A DNA stretch of 21,355 nucleotides from a virus, in the IMG/VR virus record IMGVR_UViG_3300046451_000052, positions 1 to 21,355 of that record. One strand, given 5' to 3'. Under the pieces are notes generated by a model, which had not been told where the DNA came from, searched no databases, and worked only from the letters and a program-made list of their open reading frames with translations. Below are positions 1-21,355 of the stretch, piece by piece; the first letter of the stretch is position 1, and each line of letters starts with the position of its first letter. A program made the translations under genes and the position numbers.

Positions 1-3000
1 CTTCGGGAAAGACTAGAAGAGACAGGAGCGTTGCAGCTCAAAGAAATTGACGTGCCGTTTAGCAGAGAGGATCTGGCTAAGTCTTTCAAGGACGGAAAGA
101 TAACGGATTACGGTCGAAGGATAGCTCGCTCTGCCTCGGCCAAGCAGATGGCTGAGCAGTTGCCAGAGATTAAGGCGTTGTCTGAAATCCTTGGCGACAT
201 GAACATACTCGATCAAAGAACCAAGATGTTTGTTACCCAGTCTGACAGGACGGGAACCATCGACGGTGCAGGCCCAGGATATCCGTTCATCGGACGGCAG
301 TACAACAAGATGTCCGAAGCTTTCAACGCTGAGTTCGGAGAGTATCCTGTGTCGAGGATGCTCGACTCTGACGGCAATAGCACTGACTATCCAGTATGGG
401 CAGTGGACGCTTCTCAAACGTCAACAGAGCTTACAAACAATATAAAAAGCCCCGACAGATACGGGTCACAACCGGACATAAAGCCAGACGGAACCTTGAT
501 CATTCCGCTGATAGGAGCTGCAGATCAGCTTCGCACAAACAAGGAAGTGTTCAAGAAGCTCAAGAAGGCGTGGTTCTCTGCGGCCAATAAGAACATGCTT
601 TCGCCAGAGCAGAGAGAGAAGATAAACATAAACCTAGAGGCTATCACGGGAGAGAAGTTAGACATACTGGACCCTAATACATGGGCAGTTCTTAGAGAGG
701 ATACCTTCAAGGGTAGATCCGATTTAGCTGACATAATGAGCGGCAGGAAGCCAGAGACAATAGTCACTGCAAAGAAAGTAATTGAGACTCGCGAAGCCCT
801 TAACAAGAAGCGTATTGATTCAGGTCTTGAGCCGCTTGATCCAAACCCTGTTACCGTGCCGCTCGGATCTCGTAAAGGACAGATATTTGACTACGAAAAG
901 ATTCTCTTAGACTCTACCGAGCCATCCCTTATTGGCGCGCCCACGCTTGCTTTAGGTCCGACAATCATTAGGCCGACGCCAGATAGAGGCGCTGTAACAA
1001 TGCCTGACGCTCACCCTGGGTTTAAAGAACAAATCATGGGAGAGGCGGCTTCTGATAGAATCTTTGAGCCTGTGCCTTTTGAGATAGGCATGCCTAATGT
1101 TGATCAATACGGTAGAGAGTTGTTTGAAGCTAAAAAGAGAGAAGGATTAATAGCAGAAAAGAGGCAGTGGGGTCCGCGTGAGTACGGGTACAACGCTAAG
1201 CTAGGATACACAAACAAGGGTCTTCCCAGTCAGACTATAGACGAAGAATACTTAAAGCATCTGCAGAGCATGGGCTATGCCGAGGGTGGAGGCGTGTCGT
1301 TTGACACCGACGACAGCACGATACTTGCGCTCGGCGACATTGGCGCAGACTTTGTGTCAGGCGTTGCGGGTCCGGTGATCTCTTCAGCCGCGTCATTGTC
1401 GGACCAGTTCTTTACCGACAAGACCATTGAAGAGCTGAAGGCTGACAACATTAGGTACAACGAGGCGCTGAACTACAACCCTAGAACCAGCACTGGTCGA
1501 GATGTTAACCAAGCGTTTACTGGCGCGATGAGCGAAGGAATGCAGGCTCTAGCTAGGAAGTACGAAGAGAACAAGGACAATCTCGGACCCATCCCCGAAG
1601 CTGCAGAATACATTGGCGATCGGTACGGTGAGCTTGACGAGCGGACTAGGTTTGGGCTAGAGAACGCATTTACTGTCGGCGAAGTTGTGCCGGTAGCCGC
1701 CGGAGTCAGCGCCCTAAGGAGAGCGACTGGGATGAACTCGGACAGTCCAGAGGCTCCGATTAGGCTAGATCCAGACAGGGTCGCGATCAATGAAGCTGCC
1801 GATCGTGCGGTTGACGCTGACTATAGTGACCTGCAGGAAATGTATGAGGCTATGGGAGCACGTCAACTGTCTACGAAGGAGAAGGGCGGTAACTGGCCGC
1901 TGGATGATGGAGATAGCTTATATTATTCATCAGACGGACCTAAACTTTCTCCAGAATTAGCTCTATACCCAATCAATCGAACTCCGATACTTAGAGATCA
2001 ATCAGGACGTTTCGATGCAGATTTTATAAGGGATGTGGCCGGACGCAGGCCGATCATAAAAGTCGCGGACCAACAGGAGCGTCAGAGCCTGCAACTTCAA
2101 GAGCTTAGGCGGCAACAGGTATTCCAGAAGGAGATTCAAGAGGGTTGGAAAGAATACGAGGATAATATCGACGGATATCCAGATATGAGCAATTCTCAGA
2201 AAAACGAAGTATTTTACAGATGGGTTAAAGCTAACTATGGAAAGGCTTATGACTCAGTGCTATCGAGGCAGCAGCCTGGAGCTGTTGAGCTAAACGAATG
2301 GATTAACAAGAAGCTGGTTGGTTATGTAAAAAACGATCTGTCTACGGCAGGAGATGGCATCAGAAAGATGGCCGACGAGGGTAAGCCAATTCATTCTCCT
2401 GATCCGTTCAATAGAGATGAATACGCTGGGCTAGGGGATGCCAACACTGGCTCTTGGGCAGGATCTGCCCATGCAGATAAGATTATCTCTCTAGACGGAA
2501 AGACAGATTTAGGAAGGGCTTGGGAAGTAGCCGCTGACTTTCAAATTGATAACGCGATGGTTGGTAACTTCATAGATCCGTCTCGCTCGGGTGGGTTCAT
2601 TGACGGTTATGAGAACATAACGGGAAACCAGTGGCTTAAAAATGCTGCCAATCAAAACGACAGGATAAACTATGTTGGAAACCCAAGCCTTGCGGAAAAC
2701 TTAAACTTTGATCACCTTGTAGATGAGCTGAGTAATTCTCGAGATCCTGATTCTGGCTTACCCGAAAAGCTTATGATAGACAAAGACAAGCTAGTTAAGA
2801 TGACTGTGCCGCAAGCCTCTAAGCATGTCGCTAAGGTTAACGCTTGGCGTCAAGGCGAAATAGACAAAGAGCTGCAGTCAATTATTCTCAGAAAACCAAA
2901 ATCGATAGACGAGGATCTTGATATCTCTTTTACAGAGAGCGGAAAGGGTGGCCGGTGGGTGGAGCTTCCAGACACAATGGAATCAAGCGCTAACATGAAA

Positions 3001-3927
3001 ACTTGCAAAGCAGTTGGAGGAGAGGCTGGCTGGTGTACGAAGCAAGAAGGTTATGCGCAGTCATACGGAAGCGAATATGACCAGCCAATATTTGGTCCAT
3101 CTCCCGCGTTTTTAACCGTTCTTCTTGATGCGGACGCTAGGCCACACGTTCAAATTAATACGGTTAAAGTTACTGGGAAGGAGGGCGAAGACCTCTACTT
3201 TGATGAGGATGAGTTTGAAATAATTAACGAAATCAAACCGCCTGAAAATTCGTTTGATGCGGAAGACGGTAGGTCGCAAGAGTACATGAGAAGAGATCCT
3301 GAGTATAGAGAAAAGCTTTCTCGCTCTACTAAAGACTTTTTAAACGAGACAAACCGCTCGACTAATCTTGCTGACGTTGCGATGGTAGATAAAGATTTGA
3401 ACCAGTTTGACTTATTAGACTTAGCTCCATTTAGAGACGGCGATAAAATACCAATAACAGAAGGTTATCAACCTCTTCAAGCAAGACTGGGTCAGATGAT
3501 TGGGGAAGGAGATTTTGGAAACGCTGACGGTCTTGGGGTTGAATACAACGCCGTCGCCTTGATCCAAGAAGCTACTGACATGCTTACTACACAAGGCCGT
3601 GATGCGATGCGCTTTAAGGAGGCTGACAGGTTCGTTAGCTTTTTAGAGCTGCCCGATTTAGTTGATAAGGTTTTTAGTGGTCCGATGTGGAGCAAACCAC
3701 AATATCCTAATTGGCAGAAGTTCAGATATGACATCGCTACTCAAAAAGATACAGGGGAGATTAACGGAATGAGCCGTGGAGGATTAGTTAGCGCAGAGTA
3801 TAATCCCGAGAGAATTAACTTGATGGCTCAAGAAATACTAGCCGATGGGTACGCTAAAGGCGGCTCAGTAACATACAATCCTGAACGAATTAATCGAATG
3901 GCTGAACTCATACTACAGGAAGCTTAA
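1..3927 (+). CDS. Very large modular phage protein (partial, 5' end outside window); probable virion-internal or polyvalent protein
   Basis: The frame is open from base 1, so this is the last 1308 residues of a longer protein; the TTG at 31 is not a convincing start. Residues below count from base 1. An N-terminal module around residues 60-280 has the pattern drtG..GaGpGYP...WA, which I have seen in large multidomain phage proteins. A Gly-rich motif GYAEGGGV (about residue 425) separates it from an Ala-rich, weakly hydrophobic stretch (residues 440-580). From about residue 900 comes a segment resembling the PcfJ-like/polyvalent-protein domain: LNFDHLVDEL, then a VPQASKHVAKVNAWR stretch, then CKAVGGEAGWCT (about 1003-1014), then LLDADARPHVQI (about 1041-1052). 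The C-terminus carries two copies of a YNPERIN module, each preceded by a GG motif. It lies directly upstream of the portal gene, with one base between stop and start. I infer a virion-internal or DNA-ejected protein; enzymatic activity is not demonstrable. Coding is certain, function is not. Confidence 0.6.
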   Translation, partial: LRERLEETGALQLKEIDVPFSREDLAKSFKDGKITDYGRRIARSASAKQMAEQLPEIKALSEILGDMNILDQRTKMFVTQSDRTGTIDGAGPGYPFIGRQYNKMSEAFNAEFGEYPVSRMLDSDGNSTDYPVWAVDASQTSTELTNNIKSPDRYGSQPDIKPDGTLIIPLIGAADQLRTNKEVFKKLKKAWFSAANKNMLSPEQREKININLEAITGEKLDILDPNTWAVLREDTFKGRSDLADIMSGRKPETIVTAKKVIETREALNKKRIDSGLEPLDPNPVTVPLGSRKGQIFDYEKILLDSTEPSLIGAPTLALGPTIIRPTPDRGAVTMPDAHPGFKEQIMGEAASDRIFEPVPFEIGMPNVDQYGRELFEAKKREGLIAEKRQWGPREYGYNAKLGYTNKGLPSQTIDEEYLKHLQSMGYAEGGGVSFDTDDSTILALGDIGADFVSGVAGPVISSAASLSDQFFTDKTIEELKADNIRYNEALNYNPRTSTGRDVNQAFTGAMSEGMQALARKYEENKDNLGPIPEAAEYIGDRYGELDERTRFGLENAFTVGEVVPVAAGVSALRRATGMNSDSPEAPIRLDPDRVAINEAADRAVDADYSDLQEMYEAMGARQLSTKEKGGNWPLDDGDSLYYSSDGPKLSPELALYPINRTPILRDQSGRFDADFIRDVAGRRPIIKVADQQERQSLQLQELRRQQVFQKEIQEGWKEYEDNIDGYPDMSNSQKNEVFYRWVKANYGKAYDSVLSRQQPGAVELNEWINKKLVGYVKNDLSTAGDGIRKMADEGKPIHSPDPFNRDEYAGLGDANTGSWAGSAHADKIISLDGKTDLGRAWEVAADFQIDNAMVGNFIDPSRSGGFIDGYENITGNQWLKNAANQNDRINYVGNPSLAENLNFDHLVDELSNSRDPDSGLPEKLMIDKDKLVKMTVPQASKHVAKVNAWRQGEIDKELQSIILRKPKSIDEDLDISFTESGKGGRWVELPDTMESSANMKTCKAVGGEAGWCTKQEGYAQSYGSEYDQPIFGPSPAFLTVLLDADARPHVQINTVKVTGKEGEDLYFDEDEFEIINEIKPPENSFDAEDGRSQEYMRRDPEYREKLSRSTKDFLNETNRSTNLADVAMVDKDLNQFDLLDLAPFRDGDKIPITEGYQPLQARLGQMIGEGDFGNADGLGVEYNAVALIQEATDMLTTQGRDAMRFKEADRFVSFLELPDLVDKVFSGPMWSKPQYPNWQKFRYDIATQKDTGEINGMSRGGLVSAEYNPERINLMAQEILADGYAKGGSVTYNPERINRMAELILQEA
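3799..3924 (+). repeat. Tandem YNPERIN repeat at the C-terminus of the large protein
   Basis: Two imperfect copies with a 75-base (25-residue) period start at 3799 and 3874. The shared core is YNPERIN followed by (L/R)MA and an IL pair. Each copy is preceded by a GG motif, MSRGGLV for the first and GYAKGGSV for the second. The last copy ends at the stop codon. The copies differ at many bases, so the duplication is old or maintained at protein level. Amphipathic helices are likely; the role is unknown. Confidence 0.8.
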
Positions 3928-3928
3928 C

Positions 3929-6700
3929 GTGGCTGATGAACTAGAAGTTGAAGTAGAGCAAGAAATCACGATGGTAGAGATTCCAGAGGAAGAGCTGGAC
4001 TTTGAAGACACCGAGGACGGCGGTGCTGTTGTTATGATGGAGAAGATCTCTGTCAGAGAAGCATCCGATCACTTCGCTAACATTGTTGACGATGTTGACG
4101 CCTCGCTGCTAAAGACCTCAATCAATGACTTGATGACGAAGATCGAGCGAGATAAAGAGGCCCGTCAGAAGAGAGACCTGCAGTACGAAGAAGGGCTAAG
4201 ACGTACTGGCCTTGGCGATGACGCACCAGGCGGTGCTCAGTTCAGTGGAGCCAACAAGGTTGTCCACCCGATGCTAGTCGAGGCTTGCGTCGATTTCTCT
4301 GCTCGATTCATCAAAGAGGTATTCCCTCCGACCGGACCCGTAAAGTCTAAGATACTGGGCGAGGCTGACAAGGCTAAGGTTGGCAAGGCTCAGCGTAAGA
4401 CTGAGTTTATGAACTGGCAGACGACCGAGCAGATGGTTGAGTTCAGGTCCGAGCTTGAGCAGCTCAGCACTCAGCTACCGCTGGGCGGCGGTCAGTACAT
4501 GAAGTTTATGTGGAACTCTAGATTCATGCGGCCAACGTCTGAGTTCGTTCCTATCGACGACATCTACCTGCCGTTCTCCGCGACTAACTTCTATACGGCT
4601 GAGAGAAAGACTCACGTTCAGTACATCACCGAGATGGAGTACGAAAAGAGAGTCGAGGCCGGCATGTACGCCGACGTGGACCTTCCGTCTCCGACAGAGC
4701 CTACTTTCAGCGCGGCAGAGAGAGCTAACGAAAAAATCGAAGGAAAGCAGAATACCTCTTACAACGAGGACGGCCTGCGAACAATCTTTGAGATATACAC
4801 CTTCATGGACTTTGAAGACGGAGAAGGCTTAGCGCCATACATTCTTAGCGTCGATAAGTCTAGCGAGCTGCCGCTGTGCCTTTACCGGAACTGGGAAGAG
4901 GACGACGATAGGCAGAAAGAACTCCACTGGCTTGTTGAATTTCCGTTCGTACCGTGGCGTGGCGCTTACCCTATCGGCCTGACTCACATGATCGGCGGAT
5001 TAAGTGGCGCTGCTACTGGAGCACTTAGAGCGTTGCTCGACTCTGCTTACATTCAAAACGTGCCAACCCTGCTCAAGCTCAAGGGCGGTCCTAACGGTCA
5101 GACGCTTAACGTGCAGCCTACTGAGATTGTAGAGATGGAAGGCGGCGCGCTAATTGACGACGTTAGAAAGCTGGCTATGCCGCTACCTTTTGCGGGACCA
5201 AGCCCTACGCTGTTTCAGTTGCTAGGATTCTTGGTTGACGCAGGCAAGGGCGTTGTCCAGACATCTTTCGAGAAGTTTAACGATCAGAACCCTAATGCGC
5301 CAGTTGGCACAACGATGGCTATCATCGAGCAGGGAATGGTTGTATTCAGCTCTATACACTCGCGCTTACACGCCTCTATGGCGAGAAGCTTTAACATCCT
5401 GCACCGCATCAACAGCATGTACTATACGGATGAAGAGCTAGACGCGCTTGATACAGGGCTTGAAATATCAGCGGAAGACTTTGACGGACCCGCAGACGTG
5501 GTCCCGATCAGCAACCCCGCGATCTTCAGCGAGGCTCAGAGGTTTGCTCAGATACAGGCCATCATGGCCCGTGCTCAGATTGTGCCTCAACTGTACGATC
5601 CAATCGCCATCGAGGAAATGTTCCTACGAACGCTAAAGGTTCCGGCGTCTGAGGTAATGGCCCCGAAAGTCGGAGAAGAGGACAGAGATCCGGTAAGCGA
5701 GAACGTGGCCGCTGCGATGGGACAGGGCATATACGTCCTTACCGAGCAAGATCACATGGCTCACTTGCAAGTTCACTTGCCGTTCTTGAAGTCGCCACTG
5801 TTTGGGTCTAACCCAGCTATCGCGAGCACGTTTTTGTATCCAATGTCAATGCATTTAAAAGATCATATCTTAAATTATTACTTGGCCGAGGCTCACAACG
5901 CGGTCGATATAGCCCAGAGCGAAGGATTAATCCCTGAAGAGGCTGAGGATCAAGTTAAGGTAATACTAGAGGTCCAAAGGTTCATTGAAGAGCAGCTTGG
6001 ATCTACCGGAATCGCTCAAGAGCTGGGTATGATTAACGAGGCTGCGGAGCAGTTCAAGCCTCAAGATCCTGCCGCGCAGCAAGGTGACGCGATGCAAATA
6101 GCGCAGCTCAGCGCAGAAATCAAGCAAGGAGAACTCCAGCAGCGCACCGAGCGTGACGGAGCTAGACTCCAGATTGATCAGGCCAAGATGCAGTCAGACA
6201 TGCAGACTGATCAGAATAAGATGCAGATACAGCAGGCTAAAATGCAGGCGGATATGCAGCTTGAGCAGGCTAAACTCCAGATAGAGCAGGCTAAGATGGA
6301 AACCTCCATGCAGCGCGATGGTGCCAAGATTCAACTAGACCAAGCCAAGCTGGACGCATCCACTCAGATTTCTCAACTTAAAATGCAGCAGGCTGCAGAA
6401 ATGGAGCTGGCTAAGCTTGCGTCTCAAGAAGCTGATCGGCAGGAGGACGCCGAGCTGGCTGGCCTTCGTGAGCTGTCCGCGACAGAGAGAAACAACATTA
6501 GCGAGATGTCCGAGACAGACCGCATGAATACTCGCGAGCAAAACGAGAACGCTCGTAAGGCGGAGGATTTAGCGGCAAGAGAGCGCATGAACACTGCGGA
6601 CAACATGACGGCTAAGGAGCTTGCGGCCTTAGAAGTTATTACCGGCGAGAAGACCTCGCTGACTAACGGCAAAGGAATTGACCCTGGGGCTGACGTTTAA
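3929..6700 (+). CDS. Portal protein (head-tail connector), with extended repetitive C-terminal coiled coil
   Basis: Portal proteins form the dodecameric ring at one head vertex through which DNA is packaged and ejected. At 923 residues this one is longer than P22 portal (about 725). The N-terminal acidic stretch (residues 1-45) precedes a core with features I recognise from podovirus portals: an RPTSEFVPIDDIYLPF segment near residue 195-210, and a conserved helical region around residues 445-500 (NAPVGTTMAIIEQGM, then SIHSRLHASMARSFNILHRIN). From about residue 725 to 900 it becomes a Gln/Met/Lys-rich coiled coil with an 18-residue tandem repeat. Translation starts at a GTG at 3929, one base after the preceding stop; AGGAAG at 3917-3922 is its Shine-Dalgarno and lies inside the upstream gene. 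The stop overlaps the next ATG by one base. The family call is strong; assignment to the P22-like rather than T7-like branch is a judgement by eye. Confidence 0.88.
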   Translation: MADELEVEVEQEITMVEIPEEELDFEDTEDGGAVVMMEKISVREASDHFANIVDDVDASLLKTSINDLMTKIERDKEARQKRDLQYEEGLRRTGLGDDAPGGAQFSGANKVVHPMLVEACVDFSARFIKEVFPPTGPVKSKILGEADKAKVGKAQRKTEFMNWQTTEQMVEFRSELEQLSTQLPLGGGQYMKFMWNSRFMRPTSEFVPIDDIYLPFSATNFYTAERKTHVQYITEMEYEKRVEAGMYADVDLPSPTEPTFSAAERANEKIEGKQNTSYNEDGLRTIFEIYTFMDFEDGEGLAPYILSVDKSSELPLCLYRNWEEDDDRQKELHWLVEFPFVPWRGAYPIGLTHMIGGLSGAATGALRALLDSAYIQNVPTLLKLKGGPNGQTLNVQPTEIVEMEGGALIDDVRKLAMPLPFAGPSPTLFQLLGFLVDAGKGVVQTSFEKFNDQNPNAPVGTTMAIIEQGMVVFSSIHSRLHASMARSFNILHRINSMYYTDEELDALDTGLEISAEDFDGPADVVPISNPAIFSEAQRFAQIQAIMARAQIVPQLYDPIAIEEMFLRTLKVPASEVMAPKVGEEDRDPVSENVAAAMGQGIYVLTEQDHMAHLQVHLPFLKSPLFGSNPAIASTFLYPMSMHLKDHILNYYLAEAHNAVDIAQSEGLIPEEAEDQVKVILEVQRFIEEQLGSTGIAQELGMINEAAEQFKPQDPAAQQGDAMQIAQLSAEIKQGELQQRTERDGARLQIDQAKMQSDMQTDQNKMQIQQAKMQADMQLEQAKLQIEQAKMETSMQRDGAKIQLDQAKLDASTQISQLKMQQAAEMELAKLASQEADRQEDAELAGLRELSATERNNISEMSETDRMNTREQNENARKAEDLAARERMNTADNMTAKELAALEVITGEKTSLTNGKGIDPGADV
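6179..6394 (+). repeat. Four tandem 54-base repeats (18 residues each) in the portal C-terminus
   Basis: Copies start at 6179, 6233, 6287 and 6341 (residues 751-822). The units are QAKMQSDMQTDQNKMQIQ, QAKMQADMQLEQAKLQIE, QAKMETSMQRDGAKIQLD and QAKLDASTQISQLKMQQA. An 18-residue period equals one heptad plus one 11-residue step, the spacing of a gently right-turning coiled coil. The first two copies are close at DNA level, so copy number could change by slippage. Confidence 0.9.
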
Positions 6701-7383: not shown

Positions 7384-7580
7384 TGAATATAGAATCTAAA
7401 TTTCTGAATATCCTCAAGGCAGATCAAGCAGAGTTTGCGCTTGAAGCGTTGAGGAAGCCTCAGAAGCGCGATGGTTTCGAGTACGGCTATCGCGTTGGAA
7501 TGGTTGCTGGATATGAAGCAGCTATTGACGTGCTCTTAAACTTAATAGATGAGGATGAAAATGGAAACAATGACTTATGA
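7383..7580 (+). CDS. Small conserved phage protein (65 aa), unknown function
   Basis: The gene starts with GTG at 7383, overlapping the previous TAG by one base, and ends 20 bases inside the next gene. The protein is mostly helical. A central segment FEYGYRVGMVAGYEAAIDVLLNL fits a small family seen near portal genes of podovirus-like phages, with pattern F..G...G...G...A...L; the acidic tail is DEDENGNNDL. No catalytic motif is visible. Coding is supported by the tight coupling on both sides rather than by a strong Shine-Dalgarno. Confidence 0.7.
   Translation: MNIESKFLNILKADQAEFALEALRKPQKRDGFEYGYRVGMVAGYEAAIDVLLNLIDEDENGNNDL
7551..7554 (+). promoter_or_regulatory. Shine-Dalgarno GAGG that decides the GroES-like start
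   Basis: Three in-frame ATGs lie at 7549, 7555 and 7561. GAGG at 7551-7554 overlaps or abuts the first two but sits six bases before 7561, which makes 7561 the best start. A further in-frame ATG at 7570 remains possible. Confidence 0.55.
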
Positions 7581-7980
7581 GGACGCGCTCGCGGAGGCTT
7601 TCCCAGCAGTAGATGCTGGTATTCGGCCTTTCGGTAGCCGTGTTCTGATCCAAATACGCACCGCTAAAAGCAAGACTTCTGGTGGAATAATACTAACTAA
7701 CGACACTACCGACACAGAGAAGTGGAATACTCAAATCGGAAAGGTTGTAGCAGTTGGTCCGTTAGCTTTCAAAAATCGAAACACGATGGAAAGCTGGCCT
7801 GAAGGAGATTGGTGCCAAGCTGGCGACATGGTCAGAGTAGCTAAGTATGGCGGAGACAGGTGGGAAGTTGAGCTGCCTGATGACGTGAAAGGCGATACCG
7901 CAATGTTTGTAATCTTTAATGACCTTGACATCATGGGCAGCGTTACTGGTGACCCACTTAAAGTCAAGGCGTTCATCTGA
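7561..7980 (+). CDS. Phage GroES-like co-chaperonin (Cpn10 family)
   Basis: GroES forms the heptameric lid of GroEL and helps newly made proteins fold. The 139-residue product aligns by eye with bacterial GroES (about 97 residues): IRPFGSRVLIQI at residues 21-32 matches the N-terminal strand; SKTSGGIILT at 37-46 matches the mobile-loop motif (KSAGGIVLT in E. coli) that docks on GroEL; IGKVVAVG matches RGEVLAVG; and AGDMVRVAKYGG matches the VGDIVIF strand. The C-terminus FVIFNDLDIMGSV corresponds to the final LIM..SDIL strand, followed by a 12-residue extension. It also has an N-terminal extension of about 18 residues and an insert between the central strands. It lies between portal and scaffold genes, which suggests service to head assembly, like T4 gp31 for gp23. 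The intact GGIIL implies it still binds a GroEL. Confidence 0.85.
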   Translation: METMTYEDALAEAFPAVDAGIRPFGSRVLIQIRTAKSKTSGGIILTNDTTDTEKWNTQIGKVVAVGPLAFKNRNTMESWPEGDWCQAGDMVRVAKYGGDRWEVELPDDVKGDTAMFVIFNDLDIMGSVTGDPLKVKAFI

Positions 7981-12977: not shown

Positions 12978-13229
12978 ATGATGAAGAGCAAAGGTTACGC
13001 GAAAGGCGGGATGAAGCAGGGCTACAATGATCGTTTAGACGACTCTATGGGCGCTCGAAATGGCAAGAAAAGCCAGCCAATGAAAGCTCGACGAAATGAA
13101 AGCAGGGGCATGGAGAAATCTATGGGAAACCGAGCTAATTCAGGTAATAAGAGCAGTGCTCAAGGCTATAGCAAGGGCGGATCAGTCACAGGCTTTACCA
13201 ACATGGGAACCATGAAGAACCACTGGTAA
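12978..13229 (+). CDS. Small basic phage protein with two GY(A/S)KGG motifs (83 aa)
   Basis: This is a low-complexity, Lys/Gly/Ser/Asn/Met-rich product, probably disordered in solution. GYAKGGM lies at residues 6-12 and GYSKGGSVT at 63-71; the second is nearly identical to GYAKGGSVT at the end of the large protein encoded at 1-3927. AGGTGA at 12966-12971 provides a Shine-Dalgarno for ATG 12978 or, equally plausibly, ATG 12981. It follows the other basic protein by 10 bases, so the two probably act together, perhaps as packaged DNA-associated proteins. I know of no function. Confidence 0.68.
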   Translation: MMKSKGYAKGGMKQGYNDRLDDSMGARNGKKSQPMKARRNESRGMEKSMGNRANSGNKSSAQGYSKGGSVTGFTNMGTMKNHW

Positions 13230-14311: not shown

Positions 14312-14613
14312 GCGTTTATCTTGACCCTCAAGGACAGCCAACATTCGGACTCGCTATATGCGCTCGATGTTCTCGGAATTTTTTCCTAGCTGACCTGTCT
14401 CCTGATCCTAACTTTCCAGGACTTATGGTTTGTGCCGCTGACAAAGATGAGTACGACCCTTATCTTTTGCCTCCGCGCCGTCCTGATCAAATTGTCTTGC
14501 CATTTACTCGGCCAGACACAAATATAGACACGCACCCGTCGGGAGTCATTCAAGAGGCCGGCGATGAGTTTATTGTCACTGAAGACGGCAATAAATTTTT
14601 GGAGATGGATTAA
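14308..14613 (+). CDS. Small phage protein with partial zinc-ribbon-like motif (101 aa)
   Basis: The sequence CARCSRNFFLADLSPDPNFPGLMVC follows a family pattern C..C....l.dL..Dpn.pGL.VC..C.D seen in small phage proteins next to head-tail genes. Here the fourth cysteine is missing: VC is followed by AADKDEYDP, so classical zinc binding is doubtful unless His or Asp substitutes. A PPRRPD stretch and a second FTRPD follow. GTG at 14308 starts inside the adaptor gene, giving a four-base GTGA overlap. The role is unknown; position suggests a neck or tail-assembly function. Confidence 0.7.
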   Translation: MSVYLDPQGQPTFGLAICARCSRNFFLADLSPDPNFPGLMVCAADKDEYDPYLLPPRRPDQIVLPFTRPDTNIDTHPSGVIQEAGDEFIVTEDGNKFLEMD

Positions 14614-16286
14614 TGACCGTAGATGTTCCTAGTAATTTAATACCTAGCAGGGTAACTCAGTTACCCGTAGCTCCAGAGGCATCGCCTGACGGACTGCTTC
14701 TTTTTACTTATCAAGGCGTAAGCTATCAGGTCCGCGCTGGAGACTTGCTTCAAGTTGCAGGCGTTCCAACGACTCGACAAGTTATTGCCGGAACCGCCCT
14801 GACAGGCGGCGGATCGTTAGCCAATAACGTGACGCTAAGCGTTGCGAACGGAGGTATCGGGACTACGCAACTAGCGACAAGCGGAGCTGCTGCGGGAACT
14901 TATGGTAGCGGAACCGCTATTCCCGTTGTGACCGTAGACGCCACAGGGCGCATCACAGCGATAAGCTCTGTTGCGGCCACACTAACGGGCTATGTCCCTA
15001 TAAGCCGCCAGATCATAGCCGGAGCAGGCTTAGAAGGCGGAGGCAACCTTAACGCTAACGTAACTTTGACCGCTGACTTTGAAGACACGGCACCTCTGAC
15101 GGGAACTACTAACGGTTCAGCGGGTACTTTAAACGAGCTTTCTAGGGGAGATCACCGGCACCCTCCTGTAGACCTCAATAATCAAGATCAAATTGACGGT
15201 ACGCTGCCGATCGACCAAGGCGGCACAGGAAGGTCAAACACTAACACGCCAGGTGGCGTTGCTTACGGCGGCGGAAATGACATTAGCCTCAGTGTTGTAG
15301 GGCTTTCTGGGCAAGTGCTAGTTTCCGGCGGAGCCGGAGCGCCGACATGGGGGTCTGCTTTAATTGCGACCGATCAGCCGGCAAACGTGTTCTACGGAGG
15401 ACCAGCGGCTGGAGCTGACGCTCCTACATCCTTTAGGACGATGGTCAACGCTGATCTTCCGGCTTCTGGTGTAACGGCTGGGACTTACGGTAGCTCATCG
15501 TTAATACCTGTCGTTACTGTGGATGCCAAAGGCGTAGTAACCGGCGTTTCAACGACTGCTTTTCAGACAGGATTGTCGTATCAAGGCACTTGGAACGCGA
15601 CCACAAACACTCCGACTTTGGCTTCTGGAGCAGGAGTTCAAGGCTATTACTACATTGTTGCTGTAGCAGGCACGACTAATCTAGACGGTATAACCGACTG
15701 GGCCGTGGGTGACTGGGCTGTATTTAGCGGCGCTGTCTGGCAGAAACTTGATCAGTCCAACACTGTTGTGTCGGTGAACGGTCAGACAGGCGTTGTTGTC
15801 TTAACTGCGGCAAATGTGGGCGCAGCCGCAACTGACGGAACTGGCGCTACGGGAACTTGGAATATATCAATATCTGGAACGGCTGCAAGCGCAACTACGG
15901 CTACGAGCGCAAACAACGTCCTTGGGGGGGCTGCCAATCGCATAGTATATAATACAGGCTCTGGGGCGAGTAATTTTTTAGCAGCTCCCACAGTAACTAA
16001 CACCTTTTTAAAATGGAATGGCGCTGCTTTTGTTTGGACTTCTGCTGTTACCTCTGCTGTTGCATCTTTCAGTGGGGGGAGCACAGGATTTACTCCAAAT
16101 ACTGGAACCACTGGAGATATTACTTTAGCGGGAACCTTAGTCGCAGGAAATGGCGGTACAGGATTGACAGCGGCGGGTACGAGCGGAAATGTCCTAACCT
16201 CGGACGGCACAAATTGGACCTCGGCCACACCAGCGGTTGGAGTGACTACTGACGACGTGATTGCATTAGCGATTGCATTAGGATAG
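14613..16286 (+). CDS. Tail fibre protein (557 aa)
   Basis: Tail fibres bind the host surface. The product has hallmark fibre sequence: low charge, Gly/Thr/Ala/Val-rich strands, and repeated units. Two paired repeats are visible: VIAGTALTGGG and IIAGAGLEGGG followed by NVTL, and TYGSGTAIPVVTVDATG (from residue 96) and TYGSSSLIPVVTVDAKG (from residue 291). RGDHRHPPVD (about 178-187) holds an HxH motif as in iron-binding fibre trimers. Later come SVNGQTGVVVLTAANVGA (near 388-405) and a WNISISGTA segment, both common in phage fibres. The N-terminal 60 residues are more ordinary and probably attach to the tail. ATG 14613 overlaps the previous stop (TAATG), which couples translation. No C-terminal chaperone domain is evident. 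Confidence 0.85.
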   Translation: MTVDVPSNLIPSRVTQLPVAPEASPDGLLLFTYQGVSYQVRAGDLLQVAGVPTTRQVIAGTALTGGGSLANNVTLSVANGGIGTTQLATSGAAAGTYGSGTAIPVVTVDATGRITAISSVAATLTGYVPISRQIIAGAGLEGGGNLNANVTLTADFEDTAPLTGTTNGSAGTLNELSRGDHRHPPVDLNNQDQIDGTLPIDQGGTGRSNTNTPGGVAYGGGNDISLSVVGLSGQVLVSGGAGAPTWGSALIATDQPANVFYGGPAAGADAPTSFRTMVNADLPASGVTAGTYGSSSLIPVVTVDAKGVVTGVSTTAFQTGLSYQGTWNATTNTPTLASGAGVQGYYYIVAVAGTTNLDGITDWAVGDWAVFSGAVWQKLDQSNTVVSVNGQTGVVVLTAANVGAAATDGTGATGTWNISISGTAASATTATSANNVLGGAANRIVYNTGSGASNFLAAPTVTNTFLKWNGAAFVWTSAVTSAVASFSGGSTGFTPNTGTTGDITLAGTLVAGNGGTGLTAAGTSGNVLTSDGTNWTSATPAVGVTTDDVIALAIALG

Positions 16287-16295
16287 GAGAAATAA

Positions 16296-16628
16296 ATGGC
16301 TAACGTATTTGCACGAAAACTATCTACGGGAGTTGGCACCGCGTTGACTGCTGTAGGCGGTTATGTTGTTGGGTCTTCAACTCAAACAACGGTGATCGGC
16401 TTGACCGTATCAAACACAACCGCGTCAACAGTAGATGTAGACGTGACATTAAACAATGGATCAACTGACTTTTACTTAGTAAAAAACGCGCCCGTTCCTG
16501 TTGGCGGCGCTCTCGTCCCTATTGGCGGAAACCAAAAAATAGTGCTTGTCACGGGAGACTCTATAAAGGTTAACTCAAGCGCGGCTTCTTCGATTGATGC
16601 AGTGCTGAGCGTTCTGGAGATAACCTAA
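16296..16628 (+). CDS. Small beta-sandwich phage virion protein (110 aa)
   Basis: The whole protein is strand-forming: GVGTALTAVGGYVVGSSTQTTV, then GLTVSNTTASTVDVDVTLNNG, YLVKNAPVPVGGALVPIGG, and a final LVTGDSIKVNSSAASSIDAVLSVLEI. This sequence pattern is one I recognise as recurring beside tail-fibre genes in marine phages, usually without an assigned role. A trimeric fibre cap, collar or decoration function would fit. TAGGAGA ahead of the ATG at 16296 is a clear Shine-Dalgarno, and its stop overlaps the next ATG by one base. Confidence 0.68.
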   Translation: MANVFARKLSTGVGTALTAVGGYVVGSSTQTTVIGLTVSNTTASTVDVDVTLNNGSTDFYLVKNAPVPVGGALVPIGGNQKIVLVTGDSIKVNSSAASSIDAVLSVLEIT

Positions 16629-17425
16629 TGTCTGATCTTTCGTACATCGGCAATCAACCTAGCTCTGTACCTCTGACATCGGACCAACTGCCAGACGGTA
16701 TTGTCACTACTCCAAAGATAGCTGACTTAGCCGTTACTACAGCAAAATTAGCTGATCTTAATGTAACGACAGGAAAAATAGCTAACCTAGCCGTTACCAC
16801 GGGGAAGATAGCCCTCGACGCTGTAACGGGAGCACAGCTTGCTAACAACATTGATATCGCAGGAACGCTTGATGTTACAGGGCTGCTCACGGCAGATGCT
16901 GGGGTAACCGTAGTTGGTGCGCTTACTTTGGGCGGTACTGCTGTTACATCTACAGCCGCAGAGCTTAATATCCTTGATGGAGTCACTGCTACCGCAGCAG
17001 AGGTAAACTACTTAGATATTGCCGTTTTAGGGTTAACACAACCGTCTAAGGCGGTAACGGCAGACGCTAATGGTGTAGTAACGCACGATGCTGGTATCTC
17101 TGAAGAGTACACATCGGTTACCTCATCAAGCAACGTAGTTTCCTTGAATTTACAGCTAGGCAACAATTTTAGCCATGACTTGACTGAGAACACTACGATT
17201 TCTTTTACCAATCCCGCAGACAGCGGAAAGGTAAGCGCAGCTACATTGCGTATCATACAAGGCTCAACGGCTAGAACGATAACGTGGAACTCAAGCATCA
17301 AGTGGGCGGCTGCTACAGCCCCAGTTTTGAGCACGGGGAGCGGTAACGTAGATGTGTTTGTGTTCTACACGGTGGATAATGGTACAACCTACTATGGATT
17401 CACAGCCGGACAGGTAATGAGCTAA
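16628..17425 (+). CDS. Tail fibre with decapeptide repeats, paralogue 1 (265 aa)
   Basis: The N-terminus YIGNQPSSVPLTSDQL is followed by five 10-residue repeats (VTTPKIADLA, VTTAKLADLN and variants, residues 26-75), then NIDIAGTLDVTGLLTADAG. The same order of elements occurs in the fibre encoded at 20493. Next come two copies of an ELNILDGVTA/EVNYLD unit typical of fibre shafts. The C-terminal half (about 140-265) is a unique beta domain with ISFTNPADSGKVSAATLRII and TITWNSSIKW, probably the receptor-contacting tip or trimerisation domain. The regular shaft implies a trimer. The gene overlaps neighbours by one base on each side (TAATG), suggesting coupled synthesis with the LamG/SPRY adhesin. 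Confidence 0.82.
   Translation: MSDLSYIGNQPSSVPLTSDQLPDGIVTTPKIADLAVTTAKLADLNVTTGKIANLAVTTGKIALDAVTGAQLANNIDIAGTLDVTGLLTADAGVTVVGALTLGGTAVTSTAAELNILDGVTATAAEVNYLDIAVLGLTQPSKAVTADANGVVTHDAGISEEYTSVTSSSNVVSLNLQLGNNFSHDLTENTTISFTNPADSGKVSAATLRIIQGSTARTITWNSSIKWAAATAPVLSTGSGNVDVFVFYTVDNGTTYYGFTAGQVMS
16703..16852 (+). repeat. Five 30-base repeats encoding a fibre shaft
   Basis: Units in order are VTTPKIADLA, VTTAKLADLN, VTTGKIANLA, VTTGKIALDA and a diverged VTGAQLANNI. They share sequence with the eight-copy array at 20562-20801. Confidence 0.88.
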
Positions 17426-19875
17426 TGACCGTTGCTACTAAAATAATGATGGGCAGTGGTGCTGTAGAAAGTGCCTACGAGATAGAGCAGTCTATTATTT
17501 ATAACAGTGCCAGCAACTCACAAATGTACTTTGATCCGTCATCAAACTTTACTTCTGAAACAGTATTTACATTCTCAACGTGGGTAAAAAGAGCGAGTAC
17601 TGGAGCTAGTCAACGCTTGCTAACCGCTGGTTATTATACTGACGCTAATAATCAAAGTGGTATGAGTATACAGTTTCATAGCTCAGACGTATTGCGTGTA
17701 AATTTGAAAAGAGTAGGAGGTGTAACCTACAATAATCAAAATATAGAGAGCGCAGCCGTCTTTAGAGATCCTGCCGCTTGGTATCACATTTTAGTGACCA
17801 GAAACGGAACTGCAATAAAAGGTTACGTTAATGGAGTTGAAGTATTAAGCGGAACAATGACGGCAAACTCTGTTGTTGGTATACAGAATACTTACCCCGT
17901 AATGGTTGGTGTATCTTCTAAACCGACAAGCAGTCCTATCGGCGCGTATGAAAGTTTTAACGGAAATCTAGCAGAAACACATTTTATCGACGGCACTGCA
18001 AAAGCAACAAGTGACTTTGGAGAAACCAACGAAGACACAGGACAGTGGATACCCAAAGAATACAGCGGTAGCTACGGCACTAATGGTTTTTATCTAAAGT
18101 TTGTAAGCGGTGCTTTAGGCACAGATAGCTCTGGACAAGGCAACACAATGACTGTTGCTAACCTCGCCAACTCTGACGTTGTTCCTGACTCGCCTACGAA
18201 TAACTTTGCTACGATGAATCCTTTAGTATATCGACCAGCTAATGGATCACAGGGATATTCTGAAGGAAATCTAAAATATGGACAACCAACTGCTAATAGT
18301 TGGGGGTTTGGATTTACTACATTAAATGTTAAATCTGGAAAATGGTATGCAGAAATGAGATGTGTATCGGATGTTACTGGTGGAGTTACAGCAGGAGTTA
18401 GTAACGTAGGGCATTATGGCCTTCAACATTTTTTAGGTCAAAACCCACAAGATGCAACTGGTCAATGGATATTATATATGTATTATACTGCTAATACCTA
18501 TTCGAGATTTAATGGTAGTTTAGCTAGTGAAACTTATAGTGCATTTAACTCTGGTCAAATTCTTGGTATAGCTTTAAATGCAGACGATAAAGAGTTAAGT
18601 TTTTATGTTGATGGCACGTTACAAAGTTCATTAGGTTCTAGTGGAGTAGTTGATATTTCTACTGGCGGTAGTGCTAACGATGAATGGTCATTTTTTGCAA
18701 ATACATATTATGGCGCTAGTGGAGCTATGACTTGGAATTTTGGTCAAAATTCATCATTTTTAGGAACAGAAACACCTACATCTAATTCGGATGAAAATGG
18801 AGTTGGTGCGTTTCATACAACACCTCCATCAGGCTATTTAGCTCTCTGCACCGCCAACCTCCCAGACCCAGCAATCCCCCTGCCGGAAGAGCATTTTAAT
18901 ACTGTGTTGTACACGGGTAATGAAACGGCTCGTTCGATAACTGGCGTTGGCTTTGAACCTTCTTTCGTTTGGATTAAAGAAAGAAGTGCTAGTGGATCGC
19001 ATAGATTGTTTGACCAGCCAAGAGGCGTTAACAAGGTTTTACAAAGTGATGCCGCTACAGCAGAGCTTGATAGAACAGAAGTTACCGCATTTAACGCTGA
19101 TGGTTTTTCTTTGTCTGATTCAGTTACAGTTAATCAAAACGGGGTAACACATGTCTCTTGGAACTGGAAAGGAAATGGATCAGGTTCAACAAACACAGTA
19201 GGAAGTTTAGATGCAGTTGTTTCTGCAAATGCAGCCGCAGGGTTTTCAATTGTTACTTATACAGGCAACGGCAGCGCACAGAGTATTGGTCACGGTCTTT
19301 CTAAAGACCTAGAGTTTTTAGTTGTAAAAAATAGAGACGCTAATGCTTCTTGGGTTGTCCAAGTTAGCACTACTGTAAATGATTATATGTACTTAAATGG
19401 TACTGGCGGCATTCAACAAAGCTCTATATTTGGACTAGACATAACAAGAAGTAATGATGGCACATTTTATTATGGCGGCCCTAATTATATGGGCGCAAAC
19501 GGCGTTGATTATCTGGCGTATTGTTTTCACTCAATTGAAGGTTATAGCAAAATAGGCTTTTATACCGGGAATGGATCTTCGGAGGGGCCAATGGTTAACA
19601 CGGGTTTCAAGCCCGCTTGGTTGATGATTAAAAACACATCTAATGCGCAGGATTGGATTTTGTTTGATAACAAAAGAGATCCGTTTAACGTGACTCAACA
19701 GTTTCTTTATCCAAACTTATCTGCTGCTGAAGCTGCTGGAGGAGCAAGTGTTTTAGATATGGTTAGTAACGGCTTCAAGTTGCGCGGCACTACTAGAAAT
19801 AGAAATTATAACGGTGATGTCTATTTATTTATGGCCTTCGCTGATTCACCTTTCAAAAGCGCCACCGCCCATTAA
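17425..19875 (+). CDS. LamG/SPRY adhesin with three C-terminal repeats (816 aa), probable receptor-binding protein
   Basis: Residues about 20-215 form a LamG/concanavalin-like domain: FTFSTWVKRAS, then WYHILVTRNGTAIKGYVNGVEV and NGNLAETHFIDG. Residues about 264-445 form a SPRY-like domain: NVKSGKWYAEM, GQILGIALNADDKELSFYVDG, and a WNFGQNSSF close. A linker, PPSGYLALCTANLPDPAI, is followed by three repeats beginning about 491, 607 and 707, each with (L/T/F)YTGN, a GF or GL, then a W/F(V/L)(W/V/M)IK-type strand (FVWIKER, FLVVKNR, WLMIKNT). This architecture recurs in marine phages. Lectin-like domains suit binding of surface glycans. The 18241-18840 part is much more AT-rich than the flanks. 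The ATG overlaps the previous stop. No signal peptide or catalytic triad is seen. Confidence 0.82.
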   Translation: MTVATKIMMGSGAVESAYEIEQSIIYNSASNSQMYFDPSSNFTSETVFTFSTWVKRASTGASQRLLTAGYYTDANNQSGMSIQFHSSDVLRVNLKRVGGVTYNNQNIESAAVFRDPAAWYHILVTRNGTAIKGYVNGVEVLSGTMTANSVVGIQNTYPVMVGVSSKPTSSPIGAYESFNGNLAETHFIDGTAKATSDFGETNEDTGQWIPKEYSGSYGTNGFYLKFVSGALGTDSSGQGNTMTVANLANSDVVPDSPTNNFATMNPLVYRPANGSQGYSEGNLKYGQPTANSWGFGFTTLNVKSGKWYAEMRCVSDVTGGVTAGVSNVGHYGLQHFLGQNPQDATGQWILYMYYTANTYSRFNGSLASETYSAFNSGQILGIALNADDKELSFYVDGTLQSSLGSSGVVDISTGGSANDEWSFFANTYYGASGAMTWNFGQNSSFLGTETPTSNSDENGVGAFHTTPPSGYLALCTANLPDPAIPLPEEHFNTVLYTGNETARSITGVGFEPSFVWIKERSASGSHRLFDQPRGVNKVLQSDAATAELDRTEVTAFNADGFSLSDSVTVNQNGVTHVSWNWKGNGSGSTNTVGSLDAVVSANAAAGFSIVTYTGNGSAQSIGHGLSKDLEFLVVKNRDANASWVVQVSTTVNDYMYLNGTGGIQQSSIFGLDITRSNDGTFYYGGPNYMGANGVDYLAYCFHSIEGYSKIGFYTGNGSSEGPMVNTGFKPAWLMIKNTSNAQDWILFDNKRDPFNVTQQFLYPNLSAAEAAGGASVLDMVSNGFKLRGTTRNRNYNGDVYLFMAFADSPFKSATAH
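18241..18840. other. AT-rich block covering the SPRY domain
   Basis: By hand count the block holds 215 G+C in 600 bases (36%). The 120 bases before it hold 55 (46%), and the 60 bases after it hold 35 (58%). The reading frame is continuous. The right edge is abrupt at the linker encoded from about 18826. A composition step that matches a domain edge suggests the domain was acquired by recombination. Confidence 0.6.
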
Positions 19876-19889
19876 AGCAGGAGAATAAT

Positions 19890-20480
19890 ATGTACGCACA
19901 AATCACAGACGGGGCGATATCGGCGACAGGTACGCTCAAGCAGTTGTTCCCTAACACCAGCTTTCCCGGCGGCATAGCCGATAGCGATTTTAAGACTGAG
20001 AACGGGTTACAAGACGTCGTGCTTGGGGATCAGAAGGACCGTAAGTATTACTTCGTCAATCAAGGCGAGATCACACTAGCGGGAGGTGTAGCGACTCAAG
20101 AATTCACTAACACCGCAAAGGCTATCGAGGACGTTGACGCTAAAGACTCAGACGGCAATCAGTTGTATGTGCAGGTCTTTGACCCAGATGAAGGCGATGA
20201 GGGGGCAATGGTTGATACAAGCGAGAAGATGATCACCCGTGGACTCAAGTACAGCTTTAAGAACCAAATTAAAGAACAAGCTAACAGCGCACTAGCTGGC
20301 ACAGATTGGATGGTTATCCGAAAGGCAGAACGCGATGTTCCTATACCCTCTGCTACATCCACGTACCGCGCAGCCGTGATTACAGAATGCGCTAGACTAG
20401 AAACAGCAATTACTGGGGCAGCAGATATAGATGCTTTAGCAGTTGTTATGCAGGCACAGAACTGGCCCGAACAAGGATAA
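19890..20480 (+). CDS. Probable tail-fibre assembly protein or phage tail accessory protein (196 aa)
   Basis: The N-terminal half (residues 1-75) starts MYAQITDGAIS and has strands ending in KYYFVNQGEITLAGGVATQ. The C-terminal part contains NSALAGTDWMVIRKAERDVPIP followed by TYRAAVITECARLETAI. The pairing of a TDWMVIR strand, a proline-rich turn and a helical TYR..V segment is characteristic of phage tail-fibre-associated proteins (DUF4376/XkdW-like and related assembly chaperones). Its position just after the adhesin and before a second fibre fits a chaperone for folding or attaching them. CAGGAG at 19878-19883 is the Shine-Dalgarno. The link to a defined family is by motif recognition only. 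Confidence 0.6.
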   Translation: MYAQITDGAISATGTLKQLFPNTSFPGGIADSDFKTENGLQDVVLGDQKDRKYYFVNQGEITLAGGVATQEFTNTAKAIEDVDAKDSDGNQLYVQVFDPDEGDEGAMVDTSEKMITRGLKYSFKNQIKEQANSALAGTDWMVIRKAERDVPIPSATSTYRAAVITECARLETAITGAADIDALAVVMQAQNWPEQG

Positions 20481-20492
20481 AGGAAAAGTAAA

Positions 20493-21332
20493 ATGGGTGG
20501 ATACTTAGGAAATCAACCGGCAAATGTCCCTTTAACGACATCTCAGTTAGGGACTGGCATAGTCACGACCCCAAAGATAGCAGACTTAGCGGTCACTACT
20601 GCAAAGATAGCTGATTTGGCTGTAACTACCGCAAAGATAGCTAATCTAAACGTAACCAGCGGTAAAGTGTCAGACTTAGCGGTAATAACAGCAAAGATAG
20701 CTGATTTAGCGGTCACTACTGCAAAGATAGCTGATTTAAATGTAACAACTGGAAAGATAGCGAACTTAGCGATAACGGGCGGAAAACTTGAAACCAACAT
20801 TGACCTAGCGGGAACTCTGGATGTGACAGGGTTGCTTACCGCAGATGCAAGTGTCTCGGTAACAGGTAATGTAGATATCTTGGCTCAAGGGGATCTTAGG
20901 CTCCAAGATTCAGCGGGTGGTCAGTATGTAGCTATGCAAGCTCCCGCCACTATTGGCACTTCTTACACACTGACGCTTCCCGCAGATGACGGAAACGCTG
21001 ATCAAGTCCTAGCCACAGACGGATCTGGCGTAACAAGCTGGGTGACGAGTGGCGGGCTATATAATGCGTGGCTTATAAAGACAGCAGCATATACTGCCCT
21101 TTCTGGGGATCAGCTTATTGCGAATGCGCCTTCAACAGCGTTCACGATAACTTTACCGGCCAGCCCATCAGCCGGCGATACTGTTAGCTTTAAAAACGTC
21201 GGAGCGGCTTTGTTAACAGTGGGTCGCAACGGCAGCAACATTCTCAGCCAGGCATCTGACGCTACGATGCCTACGTCAAACGCGGCACAGCTAGTCTTCG
21301 TGGATGCCACAATAGGATGGACAGTATTATGA
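20493..21332 (+). CDS. Tail fibre with decapeptide repeats, paralogue 2 (279 aa)
   Basis: The N-terminal GNQPANVPLTTSQL, eight decapeptide repeats (residues 24-103) and the following NIDLAGTLDVTGLLTADAS closely match the fibre encoded at 16628. After about residue 125 the two diverge fully. Here the C-terminal part contains QGDLRLQDSAGGQYVAMQAP, SYTLTLPADDGNADQVLATDG and a TITLPASPSAGDTVSFKNVG domain, both common in phage fibre tips. A shared attachment/shaft with different tips suggests the fibres bind different targets or form a mixed assembly. AGGA at 20481-20484 is an adequate Shine-Dalgarno. Confidence 0.82.
   Translation: MGGYLGNQPANVPLTTSQLGTGIVTTPKIADLAVTTAKIADLAVTTAKIANLNVTSGKVSDLAVITAKIADLAVTTAKIADLNVTTGKIANLAITGGKLETNIDLAGTLDVTGLLTADASVSVTGNVDILAQGDLRLQDSAGGQYVAMQAPATIGTSYTLTLPADDGNADQVLATDGSGVTSWVTSGGLYNAWLIKTAAYTALSGDQLIANAPSTAFTITLPASPSAGDTVSFKNVGAALLTVGRNGSNILSQASDATMPTSNAAQLVFVDATIGWTVL
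20562..20801 (+). repeat. Eight 30-base repeats encoding a fibre shaft
   Basis: Units in order are VTTPKIADLA, VTTAKIADLA, VTTAKIANLN, VTSGKVSDLA, VITAKIADLA, VTTAKIADLN, VTTGKIANLA and ITGGKLETNI. The DNA is also repetitive, with AAAGATAG recurring at 30- or 60-base intervals, so copy number could change by recombination or slippage. Confidence 0.9.
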
Positions 21333-21345
21333 AGGAGATATTGAA

Positions 21346-21355
21346 ATGATTATCG
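21346..21355 (+). CDS. Start of the next gene (cut by window end)
   Basis: ATG ATT ATC follows AAGGAG at 21332-21337 with eight bases between. Only three codons are visible, so no product can be named; the same operon probably continues. Confidence 0.55.

Follow-up and report, generated by a model that had tools for sequence, protein, structure and literature searches.

We interpret the locus described here, with fairly good confidence, as a hypervariable receptor-binding region carrying plug-in cassettes that are exchanged between phages, two of them mounted on duplicated stems. The DNA analyzed (hereafter the window) was a 21,355-base record of a marine phage, holding a tailed-phage structural region, with portal-like, GroES-like, capsid, and tail genes. 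By portal, its closest named phages were Caulobacter phage RW (46%) and Roseobacter phages CRP-901/902 (34%). The GroES-like co-chaperonin gene (7549-7980; PF00166 Cpn10, E = 9.7e-11) lay between portal-region and scaffold-like genes.

In the mechanism that we propose, the receptor-binding region would lie between conserved tail genes, and each cassette would combine a distal fibre-gene part (linker plus XD1-type tip) with genes for a partner and an assembly chaperone. The stem would come from the resident phage and comprise an N-terminal segment, with a probable tail-binding role, and a decapeptide shaft of variable length. Duplication of the stem gene would have given room for two cassettes (A, with a LamG/SPRY/DUF7483 adhesin, and B, with a small 102-aa partner), with a third fibre cassette after them. 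When phages, often unrelated ones, infect the same cell, recombination would transfer cassettes between them through two crossovers, one within the 77-bp linker and one where the chaperone gene meets the next gene. The tip trimer may hold its cognate partner, and the chaperone may fold the tip-partner pair. Both fibres would be present in virions, giving two receptor specificities on one virion; the mixed receptor-binding apparatus suggested by the original prediction is plausible.

Fibre A (16628-17425) and fibre B (20493-21332) were both open reading frames on the + strand (Table 1), and cassette A began at the linker within its fibre gene and ended with the assembly-gene stop codon. A relative, L001, was 99.8% identical to the window over the end of the latter and extended its sequence. 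The order in L001 was fibre B, 102-aa gene, PF16778 chaperone, third fibre (231 aa), 113-aa gene, and PF16778 chaperone; past this third fibre cassette came conserved tail genes of 210, 400, and 724 aa. Because the continuation reached conserved tail genes, the 110-aa and 210-aa genes could be taken as the limits of the variable region. It measured 4.1-7.3 kb between the core flanks and differed in content among the 14 distinct relative contigs with both flanks. The fibre duplication had been described as bracketing the adhesin, which does lie between the two fibres; however, the adhesin belongs to the cassette of fibre A, because the partner genes of fibre B are located immediately beyond the window, with a third fibre cassette after them. 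In the opening stretch of L001 (contig positions 1-45), which coincides with the adhesin gene start, the first residues were unlike those of the window, a mismatch that could reflect variant cassettes within the same sample. A G-Y-A-K/E/R-G-G motif recurred in several otherwise unrelated proteins (window 1-3927 and 12978-13229; L001 10673-12343).

Table 1. Features of the variable locus and its left flank (window coordinates).
Feature	Position	Strand	Basis
Conserved tail protein, 557 aa; left core flank of variable locus	14613..16286	+	Syntenic in dozens of relatives, 49-98% identical; PHROG tail protein matches
Conserved 110-aa gene; last core gene ahead of variable locus	16296..16628	+	74-99% identity; position fixed in relatives
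Stem A N-terminal segment (MSDLSYIGNQPSSVPLT...GIVTTPKI); likely tail anchor	16628..16726	+	Directly 3′ of 110-aa gene, 28 relatives
Stem A array of 5 decapeptide (30-nt) units	16703..16852	+	7 units in L002, ~2 in L081
77-bp linker (TGAQLANNIDIAGTLDVTGLLTADA); exchange joint of cassette A	16823..16899	+	L165 identity begins at 16823, L002 identity ends at 16899; 22 non-redundant instances
Tip A; C-terminal XD1/gp9-type domain at ~residues 157-265	16900..17425	+	AlphaFold2 pLDDT >90; VIA-align
Cassette A adhesin, 816 aa: LamG - SPRY-like - DUF7483	17425..19875	+	Pfam; internal conserved joints
Cassette A assembly protein (chaperone), 196 aa	19890..20480	+	Weak PHROG 4912 tail fiber assembly match; homologues usually follow this adhesin
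Right-hand boundary of L002 cassette exchange	20479..20492	.	L002-window identity resumes at 20479
Stem B, second copy of N-terminal segment (MGGYLGNQPANVPLT...)	20493..20591	+	Second copy in window/L001 lineage and L002 only
Stem B array of 8 decapeptide (30-nt) units	20562..20801	+	10 units in L002
Cassette B linker	20773..20849	+	Cassette B DNA common to L004, L005, L003, and L008 starts here
Tip B; C-terminal XD1/gp9-type domain at ~residues 187-279	20850..21332	+	AlphaFold2 pLDDT >93; VIA-align to TSP4
Fibre B 102-aa partner gene, start; cut by window end	21346..21355	+	Continued in L001 3915-4223, then PF16778 chaperone 4216-4563

The resemblance of the two stems was confirmed in each of the features originally listed: the N-terminal start (GNQPSSVPLT in one fibre, GNQPANVPLT in the other), the arrays of 30-nt units (5 at 16703-16852 and 8 at 20562-20801), and a common segment (AGTLDVTGLLTAD, also given as AGTLDVTGLLTADA). 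Arrays A and B aligned over a 110-nt block with 61-77% DNA identity. In the 28 relatives with a GNxP segment directly 3′ of the 110-aa gene, the segment was usually a separate protein of 72-93 aa; thus, fibre A occupies a common position. Two copies of the segment were confined to L002 and the window lineage (window/L001), which makes the stem duplication a feature of this lineage. Between the window and L002, array A differed by 5 vs. 7 units and array B by 8 vs. 10; these differences of whole units indicate that shaft length changes through intra-array slippage or unequal exchange. The free GNxP protein (L100 13310-13528 and 26 other relatives) ended in ...GISGGTF, with its stop overlapping or near the start of the next fibre gene. 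In the window lineage, unlike in most relatives, the segment was fused to shaft and tip.

Comparison with relatives located the cassette boundaries. L002, which has the core and stem A of the window, agreed with the window at 96% identity as far as 16899 and once more from 20479 onward; between the equivalents of these positions, its tip was a different one (64% like tip B), its partner was a Gly_rich_2 protein, and its chaperone was another PF16778 member. The best DNA match to this cassette in a donor search was L017 (74%). L165, with an unrelated core (adaptor 25% identical), showed 95.4% DNA identity to the window from 16823 to 18212, and base-level alignment assigned the L002 and L165 changes to the one 77-bp linker. 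The core of L004 was likewise unrelated (adaptor 22% identical). This contig carried cassette B followed by cassette A on other stems; its cassette A had 88% DNA identity over 19148-20470 (adhesin end and chaperone). Homology to cassette B in L004, L015, L016, and L026 ended at L001:4547, the end of the chaperone. L081, with the core of the window (adaptor 96%), had one GNQP fibre, a Gly_rich_2 partner, a sulfotransferase gene, and no cassette B, and matched L001 again 30 bp before the third fibre. The breakpoints in relatives fell in the linker and at the boundary between chaperone and fibre B. A DNA search of the cassette B partner genes against named phage records gave no match. The sulfotransferase-domain gene of L081 (15521-16297; PF00685, E = 1.8e-7) lay within the variable receptor-binding region, beside a glycine-rich protein, and sulfotransferase-like genes were present in other relatives, e.g., as weak matches in L209, L109, and L110.

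The linker was reused across stems and tips. A scan with its peptide recovered 24 contigs, and in the 22 non-redundant instances it joined at least five stem types (five named classes) to four tip classes in 10 combinations. Pairs that differed on both sides were 79% identical in the linker vs. 29-38% in neighbouring intervals. Third-position identity in the linker was modest (44-64%), so protein-level constraint contributes to its conservation, which may be mainly of this kind.

Beyond the linker, the fibres had been said to diverge completely. This was correct for tip sequence (profile-profile probability 1.9%) but not for fold, as the same XD1/T4-gp9-type fold was predicted with high confidence for tips A and B. 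The AlphaFold2 models were monomer predictions built from alignments of relatives and were confident in the tips only, with low confidence in the stem parts. Tip B matched residues 79-175 of CBA120 TSP4 (VIA-align Z 13.8, rmsd 1.6, 91 residues, 22% identity) and T4 gp9 (Z 10.3). Tip A gave weaker matches (Z 6.5-8.7): 7.1-7.5 to the XD1 domain of TSP4, 6.6 to T4 gp9, and, as the best, 8.7 to the Pa223 spike; gp10 was also matched. Both predicted tips therefore have the XD1 fold, common to TSP4 residues 79-179 and T4 gp9. Among the structure matches listed for the tips, only XD1-like domains appeared, and XD2/XD3 may still be present. The function of XD1 in TSP4 is not fully understood, possibly that of a spacer; XD2 and XD3 are the docking domains (PMC8825819). 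Because the matched domain was XD1, we dropped the fold alone as proof of partner docking; it suggests that tips A and B are probably of one kind. A sequence search of solved structures with fibre B and the adhesin as queries gave no matches.

Tip type predicted the next gene. Among non-redundant cases with the tip at the very C-terminus of the fibre, the next gene was glycine-rich or small (102-aa type) in 0 of 20 for tip A and 19 of 29 for tip B (Fisher P = 2e-6, shared ancestry ignored). Tip A partners included LamG, DUF7483, and propeller-like proteins; PF21722 Gly_rich_2 partners occurred in L002 and L081 and in neither cassette of the window. In cultured phages chosen by tip (CRP-4 and CRP-603) or by adhesin (CRP-811, MEP301, and SS120-1), tip A ended the gene directly upstream of a LamG/DUF7483 or DUF7483 gene, and an asm196-family gene then followed in four of the five. 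No tip A was detected upstream of the adhesin in HTVC011P, HTVC103P, and RB11-B. Adjacent genes can travel together without binding, which weighs against reading this link as docking of tip and partner.

The prediction of a LamG/SPRY adhesin was correct for LamG (Laminin_G_3, E = 7.7e-15); the SPRY match fell below threshold in the window (E = 0.038), although the homologous L004 module gave a clear one (E = 2e-8), and the 816-aa protein also carried DUF7483 (E = 3.5e-107). The adhesin was itself a mosaic. Compared with L165, the LamG part was nearly identical, whereas the SPRY-like and DUF7483 parts differed; compared with L004, DUF7483 showed the reverse pattern. Short conserved joints (~17425-17493, 17969-18226, and 18823-18984) separated the modules, with swapped modules between them. 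In pelagiphages HTVC103P (L301) and HTVC011P (L302), LamG/SPRY and DUF7483 were two adjacent genes, split at the module joint. The suggested assembly role of the 196-aa protein was backed by a weak PHROG 4912 match (E = 2.5e-4) but by no Pfam match above the cut-off; PF16778 tail assembly chaperones above the Pfam cut-off were encoded by the 115-aa and 119-aa genes of L001 and the 101-aa gene of L002. A gene in the chaperone position of Roseobacter phage CRP-811 (L298 5870-6412), annotated as N-acetylmuramidase/lysin, matched the asm196 assembly-protein profile (E = 5e-23); given this match and position, the annotation may be wrong.

The arrays had been proposed to let recombination delete or swap the genes between them. 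Genes at this locus are indeed exchanged in nature, and the interval does vary in size (3.9 kb from fibre start to fibre start in the window vs. 1.9 kb in L002), but we consider intragenomic recombination of array A with array B highly improbable. In its favor, the arrays are direct repeats of up to 77% DNA identity whose length varies by whole units between strains. However, the longest identical run between the fibre genes was 13 bp (9 bp between their linkers), whereas Red-beta and RecA reportedly need at least 23-34 bp to pair (PMC3945230). Orthologous stems and arrays of the window and L002 (stem A and upstream genes 96%; fibre B ~93%, gaps excluded; range ~93-98%) were closer than the paralogous A and B within the window (67-80%), so arrays A and B are not being homogenised. 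The expected deletion product, stem A with tip B and its 102-aa partner, was not found among relatives, and the observed breakpoints fell outside the arrays. On these grounds, together with the direct orientation of the arrays, array-by-array recombination was rejected; the inversion junctions also envisaged are impossible between direct repeats. The signs of an invertible or phase-variable fibre system were likewise missing: positions 14500-21355 contained no long inverted repeat, only one 21-nt pair at 76%, and no invertase was recognised among the window ORFs. Neither was a reverse transcriptase or template repeat of a diversity-generating retroelement recognised among these ORFs.

Three further readings were weighed against exchange of cassettes at the linker. 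The linker could be a structurally required segment rather than a crossover site, the mosaic arising from illegitimate recombination and selection for functional joints. Its stronger conservation at the protein level than at third positions fits this reading, as do exact runs of only ~10 bp in most phages that differ on both sides and the outcome of a search of eight relatives of 50-58 kb, which found no ERF, RecT, RecA, or Rad52 family recombinase; but in each of two independent close pairs the switch in identity fell within the one 77-bp linker, and some pairs had runs of 20-32 bp, so we regard it as unlikely, though worth serious consideration. It is less likely still that the tips themselves are receptor-binding (glycan-binding) domains, with the downstream proteins being separate adhesins or lysis-related. 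The XD1 fold is also found in the glycan-binding domains of CpaA and StcE (PMC8825819); yet tip A had 99% protein identity between the window and the unrelated L165, with divergence in the downstream adhesin, and tip type predicted the class of the neighbouring gene. Finally, L002 and L165 were each a single metagenome contig and could be chimeric assemblies, which would make the exchange an artefact. We consider this very unlikely: exact runs at the linker between stem A and other stem/tip types were mostly ≤20 bp, with 29 bp in one L189 pair, which is on the low side for assembler overlaps; the L081 type (other cassette, same core) recurred in contigs of two samples, and the tip-adhesin order recurred in cultured phages.

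With cassette exchange as the preferred reading, the locus illustrates with unusual clarity an established way for phages to alter their attachment targets. A broader rule, which we hold tentatively and at somewhat below an even chance, is that marine phages of unrelated families share a plug standard, made up of a conserved 25-residue linker and an XD1-type tip whose type would specify the partner class, so that a whole cassette could swap in one step and several could be mounted on duplicated stems of one virion. For marine phages not in culture, host range is commonly guessed by comparing whole fibres. Should the rule hold, the exchange unit could be read from sequence alone (linker to chaperone stop), the receptor-binding partner class would be predictable from tip type, adhesins could be tracked as they spread among phage communities, and the fit of tip and partner would be open to a clear biochemical test.

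In T-even phages, the distal fibre gene (gp37) is followed by a separately encoded, exchangeable glycine-rich adhesin (gp38). The window likewise had a distal fibre gene followed by an exchangeable adhesin, and some of its relatives encode glycine-rich partners; unlike in T-even phages, a dedicated chaperone gene follows each partner and the tip fold differs. The likeness drawn here is one of gene arrangement. PP01 is an example of the gp37/gp38 type (PMC12892980).

Shared host-recognition modules (PMC10579305), tailspike exchange (PMC11414711), and metaviromic islands (PMC3909814) have already been published. In Alteromonas phages A5, V22, and P24 (PMC10579305), as here, a fibre with its cognate chaperone is common to marine phages of unrelated families; the module there is a block of approximately ten genes, whereas here it is a smaller cassette starting at a 77-bp linker inside the fibre gene, and the window, unlike the Alteromonas module, carries two cassettes on two stems of one build. 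The tailspike complex of Ackermannviridae (CBA120 TSP4, PMC8825819; PMC11414711) is similar in its XD-type beta domains and its several receptor-binding proteins per virion, and its tailspikes are also exchanged by recombination at conserved segments (PMC11414711); however, the window tips match XD1 rather than the docking XD2/XD3, are C-terminal, and have their partner encoded downstream. Haggard-Ljungquist (1992) and Sandmeier (1994), as summarized in PMC3945230, described exchange of tail-fibre segments between unrelated phages, mosaic genes, and conserved motifs at exchange points; the systems in that summary are enterobacterial and often use site-specific inversion, which is absent in the window. 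Marine metaviromic islands (PMC3909814) also contain tail fibre, carbohydrate-binding, and gp38-like genes that are hypervariable between conserved genes; under-recruitment was shown there, whereas the joints and the cassette unit are located here.
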